Assembly (NCBI RefSeq): GCF_900100705.1
Contig: NZ_FNCH01000008.1
Span: 1 to 64,000, forward strand
Origin: Pedobacter terrae
GTDB lineage: Bacteria > Bacteroidota > Bacteroidia > Sphingobacteriales > Sphingobacteriaceae
Length of the DNA: 64,000 nucleotides
Direction: 5' to 3'
The notes beneath the pieces were generated by a model. That model was not told where the DNA came from and searched no databases. It saw only the letters and a list, made by a program, of their open reading frames with translations. Below are positions 47,329 through 58,765 of this stretch, piece by piece. Both the position numbers and the translations under genes were made by a program. How positions within the stretch are numbered: position 1 is the first letter of the stretch; every line of letters starts with the position of its first letter.

Positions 47329-48729
47329 ATGAAAAAACGCTCTACTCACTTAAAAAGAATTGTTTATTACTGTTCTTATCTTATTATTCTGATCGTTTCC
47401 CTGCAATCCTGTAAAAAAGACAGCAAACAGCCCGATTATCCCGCTGGCAGTAATGAAAACATCAATACCTGGATACTCGACAGCCTAAAGCGTTATTACT
47501 ATTGGAATGAGCAGTTGCCTTCCGATCCAAATATCAGTTTATCGCCAAAAGATTTTTTTAATACCGTCCGCAATGCTTCCGATCGTTTCTCTTATATCAA
47601 TATCCCAAATGATGCCACAACCATTACCCCCAACAACCGGAACTTTGGGTTTGATTATGTAACCGTTAGCGACCAGAATAGTGCAAAAGTAATTGGGATT
47701 ATCAAACTGGTTTTAAAAGATTCTCCTGCATCAAGGGCGGGTTTAAAACGTGGAGATTACATCAGTAAGATCAATGGGAAAATTCTAACATCAACCAATG
47801 CACAGGCCTTGCAGGACGAAATTTTAAGCGGCGACCACTTTTCGCTTGGTCTGGCAGAGCAGAACAACAATGTATGGACAGATACTCGTACCGTAGAACT
47901 GACCAAAGGCATAATTCTCGATCAAAAAGAAATCAGTAAAGTGCTGGAAAGTGCTGGAAAAAAAATCGGCTACCTCTATTTTCTTGATTTTAATGGTGGT
48001 TTGGCCAGTTCATTGACTCCGGTTTTCAATAATTTCAAATCGGAAGGCATTACCGATCTGATTCTTGACTTACGCTATAATTCTGGCGGACAAGTAGCAG
48101 AAGCGGCGGCAATATGTGCCATGGTTGCACAAAATATAACTTACGATAAAGCATTCATCACCTATAAAGGCAATAAAAACGGTGGAACCAGAACAGAATC
48201 GATCGGCACTGCAGCTACTTTCGATCGAACGGTAAACTTCAATGTTTTGCTTCAGCAAAACCTGGGTTTAAGCAAGGTTTATATCTTGTCAACAGCTTCC
48301 ACTGCATCAGCTTCGGAAGTGATGATCAACAATTTAAAACCCTTTATCCAGGTGATACAGATCGGTGAAAAAACCAGGGGAAAAGATGAAGCATCCTTTA
48401 GGATATTTGATGCCCGAAACCCAAAACAGGTCAATTGGGAAATACATCCGATCGTTTATAAACTGTTTAATGCACAGGGAAGCGGGAATTACAGTGCTGG
48501 TATCCCACCAGATGTAGCTGTAAATGAAATTAATACTTTACCCCTGCTCCCATTTGGCGATCAGAACGATCCGCTGGTAAAGACAGCAATAGCAAGAATA
48601 AGCGGCAAAGTAACCAAAACCAGAATTGATCTTAACACAATGCTTTTGGGGGCTTTTCGTCCCGGAAATATTTTAATGGATTCGAGGGCCGAATCTGCGC
48701 AACAGGGCATGGTTATTACCCACCGCTAA
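47329..48729 (+). CDS. S41-family lipoprotein peptidase with PDZ domain
   Basis: A 466-residue lipoprotein, lipobox LQSC with Cys28, facing the periplasm or cell surface. A PDZ domain (about 110-190; SPASRAGLKRGDYISKING) precedes the C-terminal processing peptidase domain with DLILDLRYNSGGQ and the catalytic serine region STASTASASEVMINNL, the lysine following in the usual GEKTRGK segment. Thus a serine-lysine dyad tail-specific protease. The substrate is unknown. Monocistronic with its own promoter. Confidence 0.92.
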   Translation: MKKRSTHLKRIVYYCSYLIILIVSLQSCKKDSKQPDYPAGSNENINTWILDSLKRYYYWNEQLPSDPNISLSPKDFFNTVRNASDRFSYINIPNDATTITPNNRNFGFDYVTVSDQNSAKVIGIIKLVLKDSPASRAGLKRGDYISKINGKILTSTNAQALQDEILSGDHFSLGLAEQNNNVWTDTRTVELTKGIILDQKEISKVLESAGKKIGYLYFLDFNGGLASSLTPVFNNFKSEGITDLILDLRYNSGGQVAEAAAICAMVAQNITYDKAFITYKGNKNGGTRTESIGTAATFDRTVNFNVLLQQNLGLSKVYILSTASTASASEVMINNLKPFIQVIQIGEKTRGKDEASFRIFDARNPKQVNWEIHPIVYKLFNAQGSGNYSAGIPPDVAVNEINTLPLLPFGDQNDPLVKTAIARISGKVTKTRIDLNTMLLGAFRPGNILMDSRAESAQQGMVITHR

Positions 48730-48806
48730 ACAAGTCAGAAAAGGTCTTATTAGCTTAACATTAACTTTAAATGCAAGCTGTAATTTGCATCCGTTAACCG
48801 CTACTC

Positions 48807-49397
48807 ATGGAAAAGTTGGAAGATTTTAAAAATATAAAACTCCTGAATGCATTGAAAGCTTGAGATTCGGCCGCTTTTAATGAAATTTACCACAGGTACC
48901 GCCAAAAGATATTTGGTTATGCTTACCATTTTACCCGCTGCCGCGAAGAAGCCGAAGAACTTACACAAGATAGCTTTGTCAGACTTTGGGAAAACAGGGC
49001 TAAAGTAGATCCCGAAAAAAATTTCGATGCTTTTCTTTATACCCTGATCCGCAATAATTTTTTGGGCAGACTCCGTAAAAAAGCGAGAGAAAAAGCTTAT
49101 AGCTGCGAAAATTTAGTACAGGAGCAATCTTTTAATGCGATTGAAGATGAACTTGATGCGAAAGAATCGAAACAACTGGCTCATAAAGCGATAGAAAGTC
49201 TTTCTCCGCAAGTAAAAAAAATATACCTGCTGAGCCGTAATGACTACCATACCCATGAAGAAATATCGCAACTGATGGGCATTTCTAAAAACACGGTCAA
49301 CAATCACCTTAAAAAATCGCTGGGTATCATGCGAAAATACTTTAAGACTTATTCGCCAGAAACGATAATATCGTTGGTAGTAATGATATTTTGCTGA
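48807..49397 (+). pseudogene. ECF sigma factor interrupted by an in-frame TGA
   Basis: From ATG 48807 the frame reads a complete FecI-like sigma factor of 196 codons, broken only by TGA at codon 19 (48861-48863). The context NALKA-stop-DSAAFNEIYHRY fits LK.GD..AF..IY.RY, so the stop stands where glycine is expected; one G-to-T change (GGA to TGA) explains it. The rest is intact: EEAEELTQDSFVRLWENR in region 2 and SPQVKKIYLLSRNDYHTHEE plus the recognition helix in region 4. The first later in-frame start, TTG 49062, would lose region 2. A sequencing error must be excluded. Confidence 0.85.
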
Positions 49398-49862
49398 GCG
49401 GTTCGAGTAAGGCGTAGAGCGCGGAACATTGCGCGTTTGCAACCATGATCATCGCGACTGAAGCATTTTTTGGTTCTCGACTGCTTTGCACTTCGCTCGA
49501 AACGATGATAGCCAGGGAGATATTTCCATTAAATCTACTGGCCATTCATATCGATTTTTATACAATAAATTATCCCTGAAGATGAACAAGTCTCATTAAA
49601 TTTTTCGCGTTCCCGTGCCTTCGTGGCCAAATTAGCTTAAATTTTATTTGATCTTCTATCATTTAACCAACACGGAATTAAGAGCATTAAGCTTTAAAGT
49701 TAACGCCTAAAATACCCGCTAACCGTTCATTGCCAATTGATTATTGGTTATTAATTGACAATTAAATCCTCTTTTAAAAAAAATCTTCTCCCGTTATAGC
49801 TGTATGCCAAGTCTCGCGCATATATACAGTAGTGCGCAGCATAAAAGCTTACAAATATTAAA
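49398..49862. other. Gene-free interval between sigma and fecR
   Basis: About 465 bases without a gene, unusually long for a sigma-fecR junction. Near 49440-49515 it resembles the dispersed palindromic repeats (gcgactgaag ... cttcgctcgaaacgatgat) in degenerate form. No promoter box was clear before the fecR start. Confidence 0.4.
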
Positions 49863-50885
49863 GTGAAAGAAAACATTAAAATACTATTTGAACATTATTT
49901 AGCAGGAAAAACCACGCTGGAACAAGAAAAAATCCTGATGGAGTATCTGGCCGATCCGGCAAACGCAGATAGTGAATTTCATGGCGTAATGGAAAAGGCC
50001 TGGGCAGAACAAAAAAGCGAAACCGATCATTCCTTAACTGCTGTCCAAGGCCTGGCAGAGATATGGAATAAAGTTGAAGAACGCAAACCACAAATCAGAT
50101 CAAGCTTCTCTCTTTTAAAATATGCTGCAGCAATTGTAGTAATTATTTCTGCAGCGCTAGGCTGGTATACATTTAAGAACGCGCAACAACCTATACCAAT
50201 AGACGTTGCCTTTTTAAGTAAAACCACTCAAAAAGGCGAAAAAGTAAAATTGATTTTGCCTGATAGTTCTGTTGTATACCTTGGTACTGGAAGTAAACTC
50301 ACCTGGCCATCACATTTTGCTAAGGGTAAACTCAGAAGTATCCGATTAGAAGGTGAAGCTTTTTTTGAAGTAAAACATGATACCAAAAGCCCTTTTATAG
50401 TACATAGCGGTCAAATGCAGACCAGGGTTTTAGGTACTTCATTTAACATATATGCCTACCCTAAAGATGGTACTTTCAGTGTTGCAGTAAGAACCGGAAA
50501 AGTAGGCGTTTCAGAAAACCGTGATGGTAAATTAAAACATTTATCACTCCTCACTCCAGGAATGAAGTTATTATATCATTTAAAGGCACACGATTATACT
50601 GTAAGTAATGAGCGCATCACCGAAGTAAATGCATGGATTAAAAACAGCTTTGCTTTTAAGGATATAGCGCTGCCCAATATTTTTAAGTCATTAGAAAGGT
50701 ATTACAATGTGCATTTTGAACTGAAGACCAATAAACTAAACCAGTGCAGGTTTAATGCCACGTTTACTAACAAAAGTATTAGCGATGTAATGGAAGAAAT
50801 CCGTGTGATGAGCGGCAAAAAAATAAAATATAAAATAGATACTGCAAACAAAACAATAACCGTATGGGGGGAGGGCTGTCAATGA
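49863..50885 (+). CDS. FecR-type anti-sigma factor
   Basis: A 340-residue anti-sigma factor. Cytoplasmic part about 1-85, one membrane helix (about 86-105), then the FecR domain with VKLILPDSSVVYLGTGSKL and LEGEAFFEVKHDTKSPFIVHS, and a C-terminal DUF4974 domain. The start is GTG at 49863; it gives the typical MKENIKILFEHYLAGKTT opening and no ATG lies nearby. Its partner sigma factor upstream carries a nonsense codon, so this FecR may be without a working sigma unless another one serves it. Confidence 0.92.
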   Translation: MKENIKILFEHYLAGKTTLEQEKILMEYLADPANADSEFHGVMEKAWAEQKSETDHSLTAVQGLAEIWNKVEERKPQIRSSFSLLKYAAAIVVIISAALGWYTFKNAQQPIPIDVAFLSKTTQKGEKVKLILPDSSVVYLGTGSKLTWPSHFAKGKLRSIRLEGEAFFEVKHDTKSPFIVHSGQMQTRVLGTSFNIYAYPKDGTFSVAVRTGKVGVSENRDGKLKHLSLLTPGMKLLYHLKAHDYTVSNERITEVNAWIKNSFAFKDIALPNIFKSLERYYNVHFELKTNKLNQCRFNATFTNKSISDVMEEIRVMSGKKIKYKIDTANKTITVWGEGCQ

Positions 50886-51052
50886 TGAGTTAGCGATATG
50901 CTATAGCGCTGCAAAAAGCGCAATTAACCGGATTTATACCTACGAAAAACAAATTAAACCTCTTTCATGAACAAGGAGCCGGATTGCTCGAACAACCCAG
51001 CTCCTAAAACAAAAGTTTTTAACCCGTGAGAATTAAAAAACATCTTGAACCT

Positions 51053-54000
51053 ATGAAAATAGGATTTTACGACTATATAAAAGAATATTTTATCAATTTG
51101 GATTACCGCCCTATAGTAGCGATAATGGTATTGTGTACCTTTTTATTTAACCAGGGCATGGCAAGCAGCTTTGCGCAAACGCCTAAAGAAAGCGGTTTGA
51201 GTATTAATATAGCCGCTAAAAGTATACATGAAGCACTTTCATTATTAGAGGATAAAGCAGGGTTTTCCATCAATTACAACAGATCGATTTTTAGCCCGAA
51301 CGAAAAAATAAACCTTGAGGTAAAGAATATGCCACTTGAGTTAATCCTCAAGAAAATATTGTTGGGCACCAAAGTAACATATCGGTTTGCTGATGCCAAT
51401 ACCATATTGCTTTATAAATTACCAGATCCGGTAAAACCGGGCCGGATATCAGGAAAAATATTCGACGAAAAAGGTGAAACACTTCCTGGTGCTTCGATAA
51501 AAATTATCGAAACGGGTAAAGCTACCCAAACCGCCAGCGACGGAAGTTATAGCATCAACGCAGAACCTGGCACCTATACGGTAGAAATCAGTTATATTTC
51601 ATTTGTGACCCAACGCATCAGTGATGTGACGGTAAAGGCCGATAAAGCTACGCCTTTGGATATTTCTTTAAAACCCGATGCAAAAGGGCTTAAGGATGTT
51701 TTGGTAACCGCCACATACAAAAAAGCATCAGTTGAAGGCTTATTAACCCGTCAGAAAAATGCCTCCGAGATCAGTAATGGAATCAGTGCCGAACAGATTT
51801 CGAGAACACCAGATAAAAACATAGGCGAAAGTTTAAAACGCATTAGTGGGGTGAGTTCAGTAGATAATAAAATGGTTTTGGTACGCGGTATAGGCGAGCG
51901 TTACAATACTGCCCAGCTAGATGGCATTACCTTGCCAAGTACTGAGGCGCAAACCCGTAACTTCTCCTTTGATTTAATTCCATCTAATTTAGTTGATAAC
52001 GTAGTGGTGAGTAAAACCGTTACGCCAGATATGAGCAATAGTTTCGGTGGTGGTTTAATCCAGATTGCTACCAAAGACATCCCTACCGAGAATTTTATAA
52101 GTTTTACGGCAGGTACTGCTTATAACGATCAAAGTACAGGCAAAGATTTTTTAAGTCATAAAAGAGGCAAATATGATTATTTCGGTTTTGATGATGGCAG
52201 CAGAAAATTCCCAACAGATTTGCAGCATACCGAACCAACCGTTACACCAAATAACACACTAACGCCAGAGCAATATGCACAAAAGATAAAAGCCCAGAGC
52301 CAGAAATTTACCAACGACAACTTTACGATGTATAAATATAAAACGGCTCCATCGCAAAATTATCAGTTTACAATCGGAAGGATTATCAAAATAGATACCA
52401 CGAACAATAAAAAGCTTGGTGTTACAGGTTCATTAAATTACCGCAATACCCAGAACATTAACATTGTTGAACAAATTACCAGGAGTGAATGGAATATTAA
52501 TACGCAAAATAATGGAGGCAAATATATGTTTAATACCACTTTGGCGGCTATGCTTAATGTTGGATTACAGCTGGATAAAAATAAGTTTAGCTTTCGCAAT
52601 ACCTATTCGCACATATATAACAATGATTTGATGAGAATAGCTGGATACGATAACATAGATGGATATGACTTTTTTACAAAAGGATTAAAACCTAATGCCA
52701 TTACCGAAACTGATGATCCTACTTATACAGACCTTTTACAAAATAAGTTAAACGGCCAGCATCAGGTTGGCAAAGTGAAATTAGAGTGGAACTTATCACG
52801 TACATCAATAGATCGTAAAGAAAAAGACATGGGCATTACCACTCAAAATTTGAAGCAAATAGGTAATGATTATGAATATTTTTATCAGGCAAGCGGACAA
52901 AGAGAAGGATATATTAAACCTACCTCCCGACATAATTATAGCAATACAGAGCACCATTTTTCATGGGGCGGTGATGCAAGTATGCCCTTCAAAGCCGGCC
53001 CTTTAAGCAATAACATCAAAACCGGTTATTTTGGCATTCATAAGCAAGGCACATTAAATTGGGACATTGTTTCGCTGGTTCAGAATGCCAATATTCCTGA
53101 CAGTTTAAGGAATATCCCGATTGGGCAGATGATTGATCCAGCTAAAATTGGCGACAATGGCTACAATTACTTTATCAGTCCTTATTATTTAAATGGATAT
53201 CAAGGAAAAAGTATTACCCAGGCAGGCTACCTGATGTTAGATAATCGTTTCGCTGAGCAATTACGCTTAGTTTGGGGAGTTAGAGCCGAATACTATAAAT
53301 ACACTGAACTTCGTAACGATATAAATGTAAAAGGAACCAGTTCATTTTTACTACCGGACGAAAAAAAATGGCGTTGGTTACCATCTGCAAACCTAACTTA
53401 CAGCCCTACCAAAGAAATTAATATCAGGGCAGCATTTTCAAACGCTGTGGTACGACCTGAGCTGATGGATAACAGCCAGTTCTTTAGATATGACCCGATG
53501 TTCGATGCACTTTTAGGAAATGCAGGTATAGCCAGTACCCAAATTAAAAATTACGACTTTAAATTAGAGTGGTTTCCTGGTCTTGGCGAAATTATTTCTG
53601 CAAGTGCATTTTATAAAAAATTTGATAAGCCAGTTGAGTTAACCTATAGCCTATCCAACGGAGTTGGTTTATATTATATCAAAAATTCTGACGAAGCAAA
53701 AGTTTATGGTTTAGAGTTCGAATTGAGAAAAAATCTTGGTTTTATTAGCAGCAATAGCCTGCTATCCCGTTTAACGCTGTACAGCAACCTCACTTTACAA
53801 AAAGCAGATGTTGTGGGTACCTACAAAGCTACTGGGACTAATGGAGAAAGCATTAATGTAAGTTCCAAAACAAAAAGAAACATGTATGGCCAGGCACCTT
53901 ATCTGATTAACGCCGGCCTGCAATACCTGGATCAACATTTTGGCTTTAACGTTGCCTATAATAAATCAGGCCGTAAAACGACACTTGTCAGTCCCGAACT

Positions 54001-54298
54001 TCAGCGTATTGAATATGAAAGTCCAAGAGATCAGATTGATGCACAAATCAGTTATAAATTTTACAAAAACAGGTTTGAAGTGAAAGTTAATGCGGGTAAC
54101 CTCCTCAATAAAGCTTCAGTGATCTATAGAAATACAGGAAGTTATGAGAAAAACCCTGACTTTAATGTAAGTGCCGATTATAGCACACAATACGTTTTGA
54201 AGCCAGGTTTTACCGACAAATTTGAGGATGGAGATCAGATCATGTTTTCTCAAAAATTTGGACGCACTTATAGCACTTCTATTACCTATAATTTTTAA
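51053..54298 (+). CDS. TonB-dependent receptor with STN domain, not SusC type
   Basis: A 1081-residue outer-membrane receptor. The order is signal peptide, STN domain (about 55-125), CarboxypepD-regulatory-like domain (about 130-215), plug with RGIGERYNTAQLDGITLPST, and a long barrel ending in phenylalanine. It lacks the SusC signature, and no SusD follows; instead two lipoprotein genes do. The frame opens with GTG at 51026, but ATG 51053 is preferred. STN plus the upstream fecR indicate surface signalling. The ligand is unknown; a metal chelate or small peptide would fit this class. Confidence 0.92.
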   Translation: MKIGFYDYIKEYFINLDYRPIVAIMVLCTFLFNQGMASSFAQTPKESGLSINIAAKSIHEALSLLEDKAGFSINYNRSIFSPNEKINLEVKNMPLELILKKILLGTKVTYRFADANTILLYKLPDPVKPGRISGKIFDEKGETLPGASIKIIETGKATQTASDGSYSINAEPGTYTVEISYISFVTQRISDVTVKADKATPLDISLKPDAKGLKDVLVTATYKKASVEGLLTRQKNASEISNGISAEQISRTPDKNIGESLKRISGVSSVDNKMVLVRGIGERYNTAQLDGITLPSTEAQTRNFSFDLIPSNLVDNVVVSKTVTPDMSNSFGGGLIQIATKDIPTENFISFTAGTAYNDQSTGKDFLSHKRGKYDYFGFDDGSRKFPTDLQHTEPTVTPNNTLTPEQYAQKIKAQSQKFTNDNFTMYKYKTAPSQNYQFTIGRIIKIDTTNNKKLGVTGSLNYRNTQNINIVEQITRSEWNINTQNNGGKYMFNTTLAAMLNVGLQLDKNKFSFRNTYSHIYNNDLMRIAGYDNIDGYDFFTKGLKPNAITETDDPTYTDLLQNKLNGQHQVGKVKLEWNLSRTSIDRKEKDMGITTQNLKQIGNDYEYFYQASGQREGYIKPTSRHNYSNTEHHFSWGGDASMPFKAGPLSNNIKTGYFGIHKQGTLNWDIVSLVQNANIPDSLRNIPIGQMIDPAKIGDNGYNYFISPYYLNGYQGKSITQAGYLMLDNRFAEQLRLVWGVRAEYYKYTELRNDINVKGTSSFLLPDEKKWRWLPSANLTYSPTKEINIRAAFSNAVVRPELMDNSQFFRYDPMFDALLGNAGIASTQIKNYDFKLEWFPGLGEIISASAFYKKFDKPVELTYSLSNGVGLYYIKNSDEAKVYGLEFELRKNLGFISSNSLLSRLTLYSNLTLQKADVVGTYKATGTNGESINVSSKTKRNMYGQAPYLINAGLQYLDQHFGFNVAYNKSGRKTTLVSPELQRIEYESPRDQIDAQISYKFYKNRFEVKVNAGNLLNKASVIYRNTGSYEKNPDFNVSADYSTQYVLKPGFTDKFEDGDQIMFSQKFGRTYSTSITYNF

Positions 54299-54672: not shown

Positions 54673-55980
54673 ATGAAAATGAAAAATTTCAAAAACTTAA
54701 TCGGTCTTTTATCAATTGTTGCTGTTTCTTTTACAGCTTGTAAGAAAAATGAAGGCGGTTCATCTGCATTTGGTAACCGCAGCACTTCAGCAGCAGATTA
54801 CTCACAGTCATCATTGCCAGTTGTGGCAGTTAGCGGAGACATTACCAGCTCTGTAACCTGGACAGCCGGAAACGTATACGAATTAAGTGGTATTGTAACG
54901 GTTAGAAATGGTGCAACGTTAACCATTCAGCCAGGTACCTACATCAAAGCATCAGCAAACACTCCAGGTGTACAAAACGGTGTATTGGTGATTGCCAAAG
55001 ACGGTACAGTCAATGCTGCCGGAACAGCTAATGATCCAATTGTATTTACCAGCCGTAACCTTTTAGATGGTAACGCCAGCACAACAGGTACTCCTGGTGA
55101 TTTTGGTGGTGTAATTATTCTAGGTAATGCAAAAATCAACGTTGGTGACAAACTAATTGAAGGTTTAGCAGATGAAGGTAAATATCATTATGGTGGTTCG
55201 AATGATGAAGATAACCGTGGTACTTTCCAATATGTTCGTATTGAATATGCAGGTTTCCAGTTAGCTCCAAATATCGAAGTTAACGGTCTAACCTTAGGTG
55301 GTGTAGGTAATGGTACTACTATCGATCACGTACAGGTTTCTTATGGTCTTGATGATGGATTCGAATTTTTTGGTGGTACAGTTAACGCTACTAACCTAAT
55401 TGCTTTGGCTTCTGATGATGATCAGTTTGATTTTGACAACGGTTTTACCGGATCATTGACTGATGCAGTTGCCATTGCCGATAAAAACTCCACACACAGT
55501 ACAAGCAGTGGTGCCAGCGATTCAAACGGTATCGAATCTGATAACAATGCACCTGGAGAAGATGCTACTTTTAGCTTATTACCTAAAACTCACCCAACTT
55601 TAACTAACGTAAGTGTTTTCGGAACTGAAAATACTGCTGGTATTGCTGGTTTAGGTTACCGTAATGGTATCCGCGAGCGTAGAGGTTCGGAAGTTACTTT
55701 GATCGACGTAATTGTTTCTGGTTATCCAAGAGGTATCGTTTTTGATGCTGACGCCAATGCAAGTCTTTCAGATCTTAATTCTACATCTGTTCACGGTTTT
55801 ACGAGCGCTGTTACAGCAGCAGTTGGTACTTATTTTGACGGTGGTGGCAACACTTTAGTCGTTAACGGTAGCAATGCAAGTGCATTTGGTGTAAGCCAAC
55901 CTTGGTACAACACTCCAGGTTCTCCATCTACAGTTACCCTTCCAAGCTGGGCAGCTACATGGTCAAAACTTGTATTCTAA
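54673..55980 (+). CDS. Beta-helix-like surface lipoprotein
   Basis: A 435-residue lipoprotein, lipobox FTAC with Cys23. The mature protein is rich in Gly, Thr, Asn and Asp with regularly spaced short hydrophobic strands (GVLVIAKDGTVNAAGTAND, GGVIILGNAKINVG, TFQYVRIEYAGF), a pattern of right-handed beta-helices. Acidic runs such as SDDDQFDFDNG could bind calcium. Codons are biased to GGT, GCT and AAC more than in neighbours, suggesting high expression. It likely works with the TonB receptor upstream as ligand binder in place of SusD; this is inference. Confidence 0.75.
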   Translation: MKMKNFKNLIGLLSIVAVSFTACKKNEGGSSAFGNRSTSAADYSQSSLPVVAVSGDITSSVTWTAGNVYELSGIVTVRNGATLTIQPGTYIKASANTPGVQNGVLVIAKDGTVNAAGTANDPIVFTSRNLLDGNASTTGTPGDFGGVIILGNAKINVGDKLIEGLADEGKYHYGGSNDEDNRGTFQYVRIEYAGFQLAPNIEVNGLTLGGVGNGTTIDHVQVSYGLDDGFEFFGGTVNATNLIALASDDDQFDFDNGFTGSLTDAVAIADKNSTHSTSSGASDSNGIESDNNAPGEDATFSLLPKTHPTLTNVSVFGTENTAGIAGLGYRNGIRERRGSEVTLIDVIVSGYPRGIVFDADANASLSDLNSTSVHGFTSAVTAAVGTYFDGGGNTLVVNGSNASAFGVSQPWYNTPGSPSTVTLPSWAATWSKLVF

Positions 55981-56076: not shown

Positions 56077-57177
56077 ATGAAACTAAAATTTTTTACTCTT
56101 TTCTTTTTTTCTGCAGCTATTACGTTAAGTTTTTCTTGTCGCAAAGCAGAACTCCTTCAACCAGAACCATCAAAAGTCATCCAGTTAAGTATTAGCGGAA
56201 ATACAGAGGTAGATCTGGAATACTTGTATAAAGATAGTGTGATAGCTGATACCAAAACTGGTACTACAAATAGTATCAATATTAAAACCCTGCTTACAGT
56301 AAAAGACCAAAATACTACCCTAAAGGTAAGAAAGAAGGGTACAGCAGAAATACTACTAACTAAAAACATTACTGCAACGCCTTTCGATCAAAGTATCAGT
56401 ATTTTTTACGATGGCAATAAAGTATACAACAATTCCATTACATTGGCAATTAAAAGTTATGCGCTATCCGGAGAGCTCGAATTTTTATTGGATGGAAATC
56501 TGTTCACTTCAGGAACAGGCGCTATCAATAAAGTATCCTCCATACTGATTGATAAGGGCACGACAAGAGAAATTACCATCCGCAAAAAAGGAGAAACGGC
56601 CATTTTACTTAAAAAAGTAATCGAATCAACAACGGCCCGGCAGAATATTGGTTTCTTCTTTGATGGAACCAATATAGTTGATAATGTAAAACTCGATCCT
56701 CCTGCTAATCCGGCCAATATGATGATCACTGCCAAATTTGAAACCACATTTCCAATTCAATTTAAAGGTGTTGATGTAGACCTTGTATTTTATACCAGGC
56801 CTTCATCTGCTGCGAACACAGTAGTTGGCACAAAAGTTATACCCGAAATTAGGTTTACCTTACCAAAAGATGGCTCTCTAAATTCCATTGAACTACCAGC
56901 ACTGCCTGGGCCGAATTATATTTACAGCTTCGATATTGTTGAAAAAGGCACCAATAACTATCCTTATAACGCTGGTACCCCTTTGATTATTAATGGTTAT
57001 ACACTTAAACCTAACGAAGGTAGAGTTACCTCGGCTTTTGCAACAGATGGATTCAATTTTCAGGCAGGAAAATCTAAATTGTTTGTAATTACAGACGCCA
57101 GAACATCGGTAGCGGCTTCAAAAACTATTTATGTGTCAGGTGGCAAATTAACAGACCTTTCACAATATTTTCAATAG
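56077..57177 (+). CDS. Lipoprotein with two tandem repeats
   Basis: A 366-residue lipoprotein, lipobox SFSC with Cys21. Residues 47-119 and 134-203 are two copies of one domain: LEYLYKDS ... KVRKKGTAEILLTKNI ... ISIFYDGNKVYNN against LEFLLDGN ... TIRKKGETAILLKKVI ... IGFFFDGTNIVDN. The C-terminal 160 residues form another beta-rich part. No family is recognised. As last gene of the sigma-fecR-TonB locus it is probably a surface partner of the receptor. Confidence 0.75.
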   Translation: MKLKFFTLFFFSAAITLSFSCRKAELLQPEPSKVIQLSISGNTEVDLEYLYKDSVIADTKTGTTNSINIKTLLTVKDQNTTLKVRKKGTAEILLTKNITATPFDQSISIFYDGNKVYNNSITLAIKSYALSGELEFLLDGNLFTSGTGAINKVSSILIDKGTTREITIRKKGETAILLKKVIESTTARQNIGFFFDGTNIVDNVKLDPPANPANMMITAKFETTFPIQFKGVDVDLVFYTRPSSAANTVVGTKVIPEIRFTLPKDGSLNSIELPALPGPNYIYSFDIVEKGTNNYPYNAGTPLIINGYTLKPNEGRVTSAFATDGFNFQAGKSKLFVITDARTSVAASKTIYVSGGKLTDLSQYFQ

Positions 57178-58438: not shown

Positions 58439-58543
58439 TAATATATTAATTTACACTTAACTTATTCTTAATATGATATGTTCAATTTAGCGCCGCTGAA
58501 AAGCACCTATCATTCCAAAAACAAACAAAAAATATTAAGTAAA

Positions 58544-58765
58544 ATGAAAAAAAAGCTACCATGGATGTTCACCTCGCTGATCCTGTCCGCTAGCACATTT
58601 GCTCAAAGGATCACCATCAAACGTGTGGTCGCTAATGCAAAGATTGGGGAAACGATCCGTGCCTTAAATAGTGTGCTTATGTTAGGAATAGGCCAGCAGG
58701 GAACCGAATTGAACAAGGTCTCGATAAAAACATTTAAAACTTTAACTAACGAATTAGCTTTATGA
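58544..58765 (+). CDS. Small exported protein coupled to susC
   Basis: A 73-residue frame starting MKKKLPWMFTSLILSASTFAQ, a clear signal peptide, followed by about 52 residues of mature protein (RITIKRVVANAKIGETIRAL...). The ATG at 58544 is preferred to 58478 because it opens the signal peptide. Its stop overlaps the susC start (ATGA at 58762-58765), so translation is coupled. No family is recognised. It could be a real small accessory protein or the surviving N-terminus of a decayed longer gene. Confidence 0.5.
   Translation: MKKKLPWMFTSLILSASTFAQRITIKRVVANAKIGETIRALNSVLMLGIGQQGTELNKVSIKTFKTLTNELAL

Follow-up and report, generated by a model that had tools for sequence, protein, structure and literature searches.

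A probable null allele of an ECF sigma gene within a retained FecR and STN receptor module in Pedobacter

Introduction

What has become of a receptor-controlled signalling module when its sigma gene carries a stop codon and the genes around it are intact? This question is raised by a locus within the 64,000-nucleotide stretch of DNA analysed here (the window), which belongs to a Pedobacter genome of 5.76 Mb (G000, a draft assembly of 63 contigs). A FecI-like ECF sigma gene is interrupted at codon 19 by an in-frame TGA. It appears to be one component of a module of an S41 peptidase, the sigma factor, FecR, an STN receptor and two surface proteins (Table 1). If real, the lesion amounts to a knock-out made by nature, in which a single dedicated ECF sigma factor is lost and the anti-sigma regulator, the receptor and a promoter-like element are left intact. 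It would thus provide a clean case for asking what role FecR and the receptor play without their sigma factor.

We consider it probable that the module's ECF sigma gene has recently become a null allele in the window, with induction by the receptor signal lost. This is the best account of the locus; assembly error, leaky readthrough of the stop and use of another sigma factor of the cell are weaker rivals.

Table 1. Features of the sigma-FecR-receptor locus, in window coordinates.
Feature	Position	Strand	Basis
S41 C-terminal processing peptidase, PDZ domain	47329..48729	+	profile matches; syntenic upstream of sigma in 20/20 relatives
Conserved block upstream of sigma: TTAACATTAACTTTAAA, then TAA-N-TTG; presumed sigma promoter, retained	48755..48788	+	alignment of 21 loci; promoter role inferred
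ECF sigma (FecI-like) gene with internal stop	48807..49397	+	reading frame and profile matches
In-frame TGA at codon 19	48861..48863	+	sequence and comparison with relatives
Run of eight A in the V-K-K-I codons of sigma	49214..49221	+	sequence; seven A in G105 and G067
Promoter-like element TAGCTGT-N15-CATATATA upstream of fecR	49797..49826	+	upstream alignment and pattern search
FecR anti-sigma regulator, intact	49863..50885	+	open frame; FecR and FecR_C domains
TonB-dependent receptor with STN signalling domain, intact	51026..54298	+	open frame; STN, plug and barrel domains
Surface lipoprotein-like protein, 435 aa, conserved partner	54673..55980	+	open frame, synteny
Lipoprotein-like protein, 366 aa, conserved partner	56077..57177	+	open frame, synteny

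Results and Discussion

The interrupted sigma gene

The sigma frame begins with ATG at 48807, finishes with an ordinary TGA at 49395-49397 and gives 196 residues when read through, the codon-19 TGA being its sole internal stop. With this stop read as X, the product scored 139.4 bits against TIGR02985 (Sig70_bacteroi1; curated cut-off 126.4), and both Pfam region 2 and region 4_2 were found over their cut-offs. TIGR02985 also calls for an intact reading frame, which the TGA breaks. Pfam region 2 spans residues 27-94 and lies wholly 3' of the stop. Translation from the ATG at 48807 would end after 18 residues, ahead of region 2, so that no sigma factor capable of polymerase binding would be made. 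The genes from fecR onwards presumably form an operon, and this fecR-receptor operon would no longer be inducible by its own receptor signal. The signalling chain would thus be cut at its output.

The preliminary description had noted a single internal stop at a family glycine position, beside an intact FecR and STN receptor. Both observations are borne out: glycine occupies the position in 19 of 20 syntenic orthologues, and the two partner frames are open and contain the expected domains. All five other module genes are open in the window. The stop, its absence from 20 orthologues and the intact state of the other genes and upstream elements are direct observations. We infer that the living strain has truly lost this sigma and that its fecR-receptor operon is switched off.

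The same description had also raised the idea of a phase-like off state, which the sequence context of the TGA does not support. No tandem repeat was found within 48500-49900, and the codon falls outside all three short direct-repeat families and the one inverted arm pair present there. Repeat-driven switching at the TGA was set aside on these grounds.

Comparison with other Pedobacter genomes

Sigma matches were obtained in all 145 Pedobacter genomes searched, the majority being paralogues. A close FecR match was restricted to 31 genomes (32 places), and a sigma match adjoined FecR at every one of these places, with a widest measured gap of 4.1 kb. This gap belongs to G095, where sigma and fecR are about 4.1 kb apart (L044:8770-12877, both genes on the minus strand as stored). 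Direct comparison as syntenic loci covered 20 of the 31 FecR places outside the window. The other 11 are more distant; the search listing gives them open sigma frames of 204-216 aa, stop-free within the match.

The order S41 peptidase, sigma, FecR was kept in all 20 syntenic relatives. The receptor, alongside FecR, and the 435-aa and 366-aa partners were also present in 19 of them; the contig of the remaining relative, G101, ends inside FecR. The 366-aa protein match in G114 is partial, with 31% identity across half its length. An ATG start and a recognisable N-terminus ahead of codon 19 were retained in 20/20 relatives.

Codon 19 itself was GGC in 14 of the 20 syntenic orthologues, GGA in three, GGG in two and GAC (Asp) in one. 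Comparison of this codon in sister strains had been proposed earlier; made here in relatives, it gave TGA in 0/20, and inheritance of the stop from a common ancestor is ruled out. The four relatives nearest to the window in the sigma tree (G113, G093, G068 and G041) all carry GGC, and the window therefore differs from them by two bases. The suggestion that a single base change from GGA had produced the stop is not supported by these four sequences; a single step from GGA would require an earlier silent change.

Across the genus, the sigma gene was broken at three of the 32 places (21 inspected directly, 11 by listing) through two kinds of lesion. FecR was open at all three.

Sequence damage or assembly error

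A sequencing or assembly error, with the sigma gene of the living strain intact, would be compatible with the draft state of the assembly (63 contigs), with the lack of a codon-19 stop in 20/20 relatives and with the intact partner genes. The window and 40 kb of its contig were checked for damage against a G113 contig of 74 kb. At a threshold of 60% identity, 65 G113 ORFs of 80 aa or longer could be matched; 55 of these proved full length, and the remaining 10 were flagged. The sigma gene was the sole flagged ORF with a true internal stop. A second, g5350, falls short by a few codons at its end; another six are contained in longer ORFs, and the last two form an overlapping opposite-strand pair that is mostly covered and stop-free. 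In the reverse comparison, 50 of 60 window ORFs were full length against G113. Eight of the 10 flagged here lie on longer ORFs, and two, the ORF at 58478-58765 and one near the end of the G113 contig, keep their flag. General sequence damage is rejected for the region compared, sigma being the one matched G113 ORF with a true internal stop.

Sigma region 2 was matched 38 more times elsewhere in the genome, in part by factors other than ECF, and no aligned region contained a stop. The clean state of these 38 matches and the lack of a true internal stop in any matched G113 gene but sigma argue against a poor assembly. The two-base difference from the nearest relatives also counts against error, because a single miscalled base would be insufficient unless one true change had come first. 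Together, these observations make error an unlikely explanation.

Selection on the window copy and age of the loss

Pairwise dN/dS of the sigma gene between the window and G113 was 0.09 (dS 0.26). Values for the window against its four nearest relatives were 0.078-0.106, versus 0.063-0.084 for the six pairs among those four intact copies. The slightly higher window values possibly reflect some relaxation before the stop arose.

Changes were assigned to branches by setting each differing base against the majority of three outgroup rows, a rough procedure that left three sites unplaced. The window branch received five synonymous and six nonsynonymous changes, two of the six at codon 19, and the G113 branch 18 and seven, respectively. 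With codon 19 excluded, five of nine window changes were synonymous, a weak excess over the neutral share, with p of 0.019 or 0.099 according to the share assumed. The resulting ratio of four nonsynonymous to five synonymous changes was not different from the 7:18 of G113 (p 0.43). Selective constraint on the sigma gene probably lasted through at least some of the window branch, which would imply a young loss; the TGA is probably young, as judged from small counts on a branch too short for dating the event.

Decoding of the interrupted frame

Leaky decoding of UGA could give some sigma product, and a low level might be enough for a regulator needed in few copies. The undamaged remainder of the frame and its low overall dN/dS are in keeping with this, as is the purifying selection seen in two other species on sigma copies with a broken frame. 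A recent null allele, however, would give the same pattern. TGA is moreover an ordinary stop in this DNA, where it closes five of the 35 conserved ORFs that reach 150 aa (TAA 27, TAG 3), and the RNA fold 3' of the sigma TGA showed nothing unusual (z -0.12). A search of the genome for SelB gave no match over the cut-off and eight weaker ones, and selenocysteine at this codon is rejected on that basis. We consider readthrough improbable on balance.

The two other species concerned are represented by G105 and G067, in which the run of eight A is shortened to seven (L057:6355-6375 and L058:6354-6374, respectively). This -1 change of frame ends the sigma product after 140 residues; no stop or frame break was found in the other module genes of either locus. 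The two sigma genes differ by 24 synonymous and eight nonsynonymous changes (dS 0.24, dN/dS 0.07). Eight synonymous and four nonsynonymous of these differences lie after the lesion, with neutral p of 0.0006 or 0.0095, depending on the assumption. Purifying selection has apparently acted on both sides of the lesion, to judge by these substitution counts.

Both genes read GTA AAA AAA TAT ACC TGA at this point, with the heptamer A AAA AAA phased as a -1 ribosomal shift would require. A_AAA_AAA is the heptamer of comparison in E. coli (excerpts of PMC5009743), and the length of A runs that is avoided differs among genomes (excerpts of PMC1088944). Folding after the A7 run was nothing special, with z of -0.58 and -1.07 versus -1.10 for the in-frame control L050.

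G105 and G067 group together in the sigma tree with modest support (89/76). In the rpoB tree, for which 20 of the 21 genomes gave a match, G067 instead joins G095, and G105 joins G143. A grouping of G105 and G143 was not rejected by the sigma data (p 0.234); one of G067 and G095 was, weakly (p 0.037). Three origins of the A7 state are therefore considered: an allele shared by both genomes and maintained by selection, in which case recoding would be implied; two separate recent slips, the run being prone to mutation; or an assembly error in each genome.

Combining the two lesions, the sigma gene could be repeatedly frame-broken and yet leaky or reversible, through UGA readthrough in the window and through slippage or -1 frameshifting at A7 in the two relatives. 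Trace amounts of sigma would then be made, with decoding errors or an on/off allele acting as the gate of the receptor operon. We regard this as decidedly unlikely. With selection apparently on both halves of the G105 and G067 genes, rescue of broken Pedobacter ECF genes by slippage or frameshifting is nonetheless testable; otherwise, the window sigma gene is an ordinary young pseudogene.

Upstream elements and use of another sigma factor

Within the conserved block upstream of sigma, the TAA and TTG positions were invariant in 21/21 aligned loci. The element upstream of fecR is bipartite and separate from this block; its exact form occurred in 20 of the 145 Pedobacter genomes, once in each, and the reversed control gave one occurrence in all 145. 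Eighteen of the 20 copies are at the module locus, and two (G005 and G057) are elsewhere, in genomes without a close FecR match. The exact element was absent at 14 of the 32 FecR places; the four of these covered by the upstream alignment (G137, G088, G031 and G045) show variants of it. Spacing between sigma and fecR ranged from about 138 to 4108 bp in the 20 relatives and is 465 bp in the window. The conserved element before fecR and this variable spacing make a separate promoter for fecR and the receptor most likely, presumably one read by the module's sigma factor. Both upstream blocks are retained in the window.

G000 contains one exact copy of the fecR element, that of the locus itself. 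With up to two mismatches allowed, 18 sites were found (locus included) versus 14 for the control, and a wider regulon is thus unsupported.

The module would still work with its own sigma dead if the fecR promoter were read by a different sigma factor of the cell. The preliminary description had allowed for such a substitute, and the 38 further region-2 matches, not all ECF, and the intact FecR and receptor are in its favour. Yet the 16 paralogues listed from the same genome (E up to 1e-10) share just 25-33% identity with the window sigma. The single exact element, near-matches not clearly above the control and a sigma gene adjoining FecR at 32/32 places likewise point to a dedicated sigma, and we consider a substitute very unlikely.

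Restart at a usual start codon downstream of the TGA is rejected, since the first in-frame ATG, GTG or TTG is the TTG at 49062, by which most of region 2 has passed; a shortened working sigma from a rare start codon such as ATT 48885 would suit a region 2 that begins past the stop, at residue 27, but is hardly credible given this lack of usual starts before 49062 and the ATG and N-terminus kept in every relative.

Relation to known systems

The null allele favoured here sits in a module that resembles FecI-FecR-FecA signalling. The sigma passes TIGR02985 (stop as X), and a FecR with FecR_C and a TonB receptor with STN, plug and barrel domains are found beside it, as in FecI/FecR/FecA modules. 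It differs from such systems in that the sigma is interrupted and that sigma and fecR lie apart, fecR having its own promoter-like element.

The C-terminal processing proteases Prc and CtpA, which we take to be members of the S41 family, provide a second point of comparison. They act in cell-surface signalling of Pseudomonas (excerpts of PMC11637429), a role that fits an S41 gene beside the window sigma.

A closer match in gene content is PUSIII, or 'FI cluster', of Flavobacterium johnsoniae (Fjoh_3853-3859), the genes of which are induced by phosphate depletion according to excerpts of PMC8115612. The same excerpts list an S41 peptidase, outer-membrane lipoprotein-type proteins, a TonB-dependent transporter, a FecR-like regulator and a sigma factor, and the window module has these gene kinds. 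Unlike this content, scores against the NCBIfam models GFO_1088 (sigma, 96.4 of 130) and GFO_1087 (S41, 292.2 of 455) were below the cut-offs, and the tie of these models to PUSIII itself rests on gene kinds only. The comparison therefore indicates a likeness of content rather than PUSIII membership. By analogy with F. johnsoniae, the module may serve in phosphate scavenging.

With its single stop and its otherwise intact frame and module genes, the window sigma is also like recent point-mutation pseudogenes of regulators. It is unlike them in that the same gene is frame-broken in another way in two species, under purifying selection. A literature search of titles and abstract beginnings returned no report of a naturally broken fecI beside an intact fecR, which is no proof of absence.

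Partner proteins

The 435-aa protein had no Pfam, NCBIfam or PDB-sequence match, and the 366-aa protein no Pfam or NCBIfam match; both are presumably located at the cell surface. The 435-aa protein belongs to a widespread family: a sample of 198 genomes of the class contained relatives in 138, and a second match is present in its own genome (C20:34501-35595).

The first 1 kb of the receptor gene is 90% identical to G113 and the remainder 75-76%. The gene for the 366-aa protein is 74.5% identical to G113 and 93.4% to G093. The mosaic look of these two genes suggests allele exchange of the barrel part. The receptor gene of G093 (L041:8279-11553) is itself in two pieces, divided by a frame break that brings in a stop.
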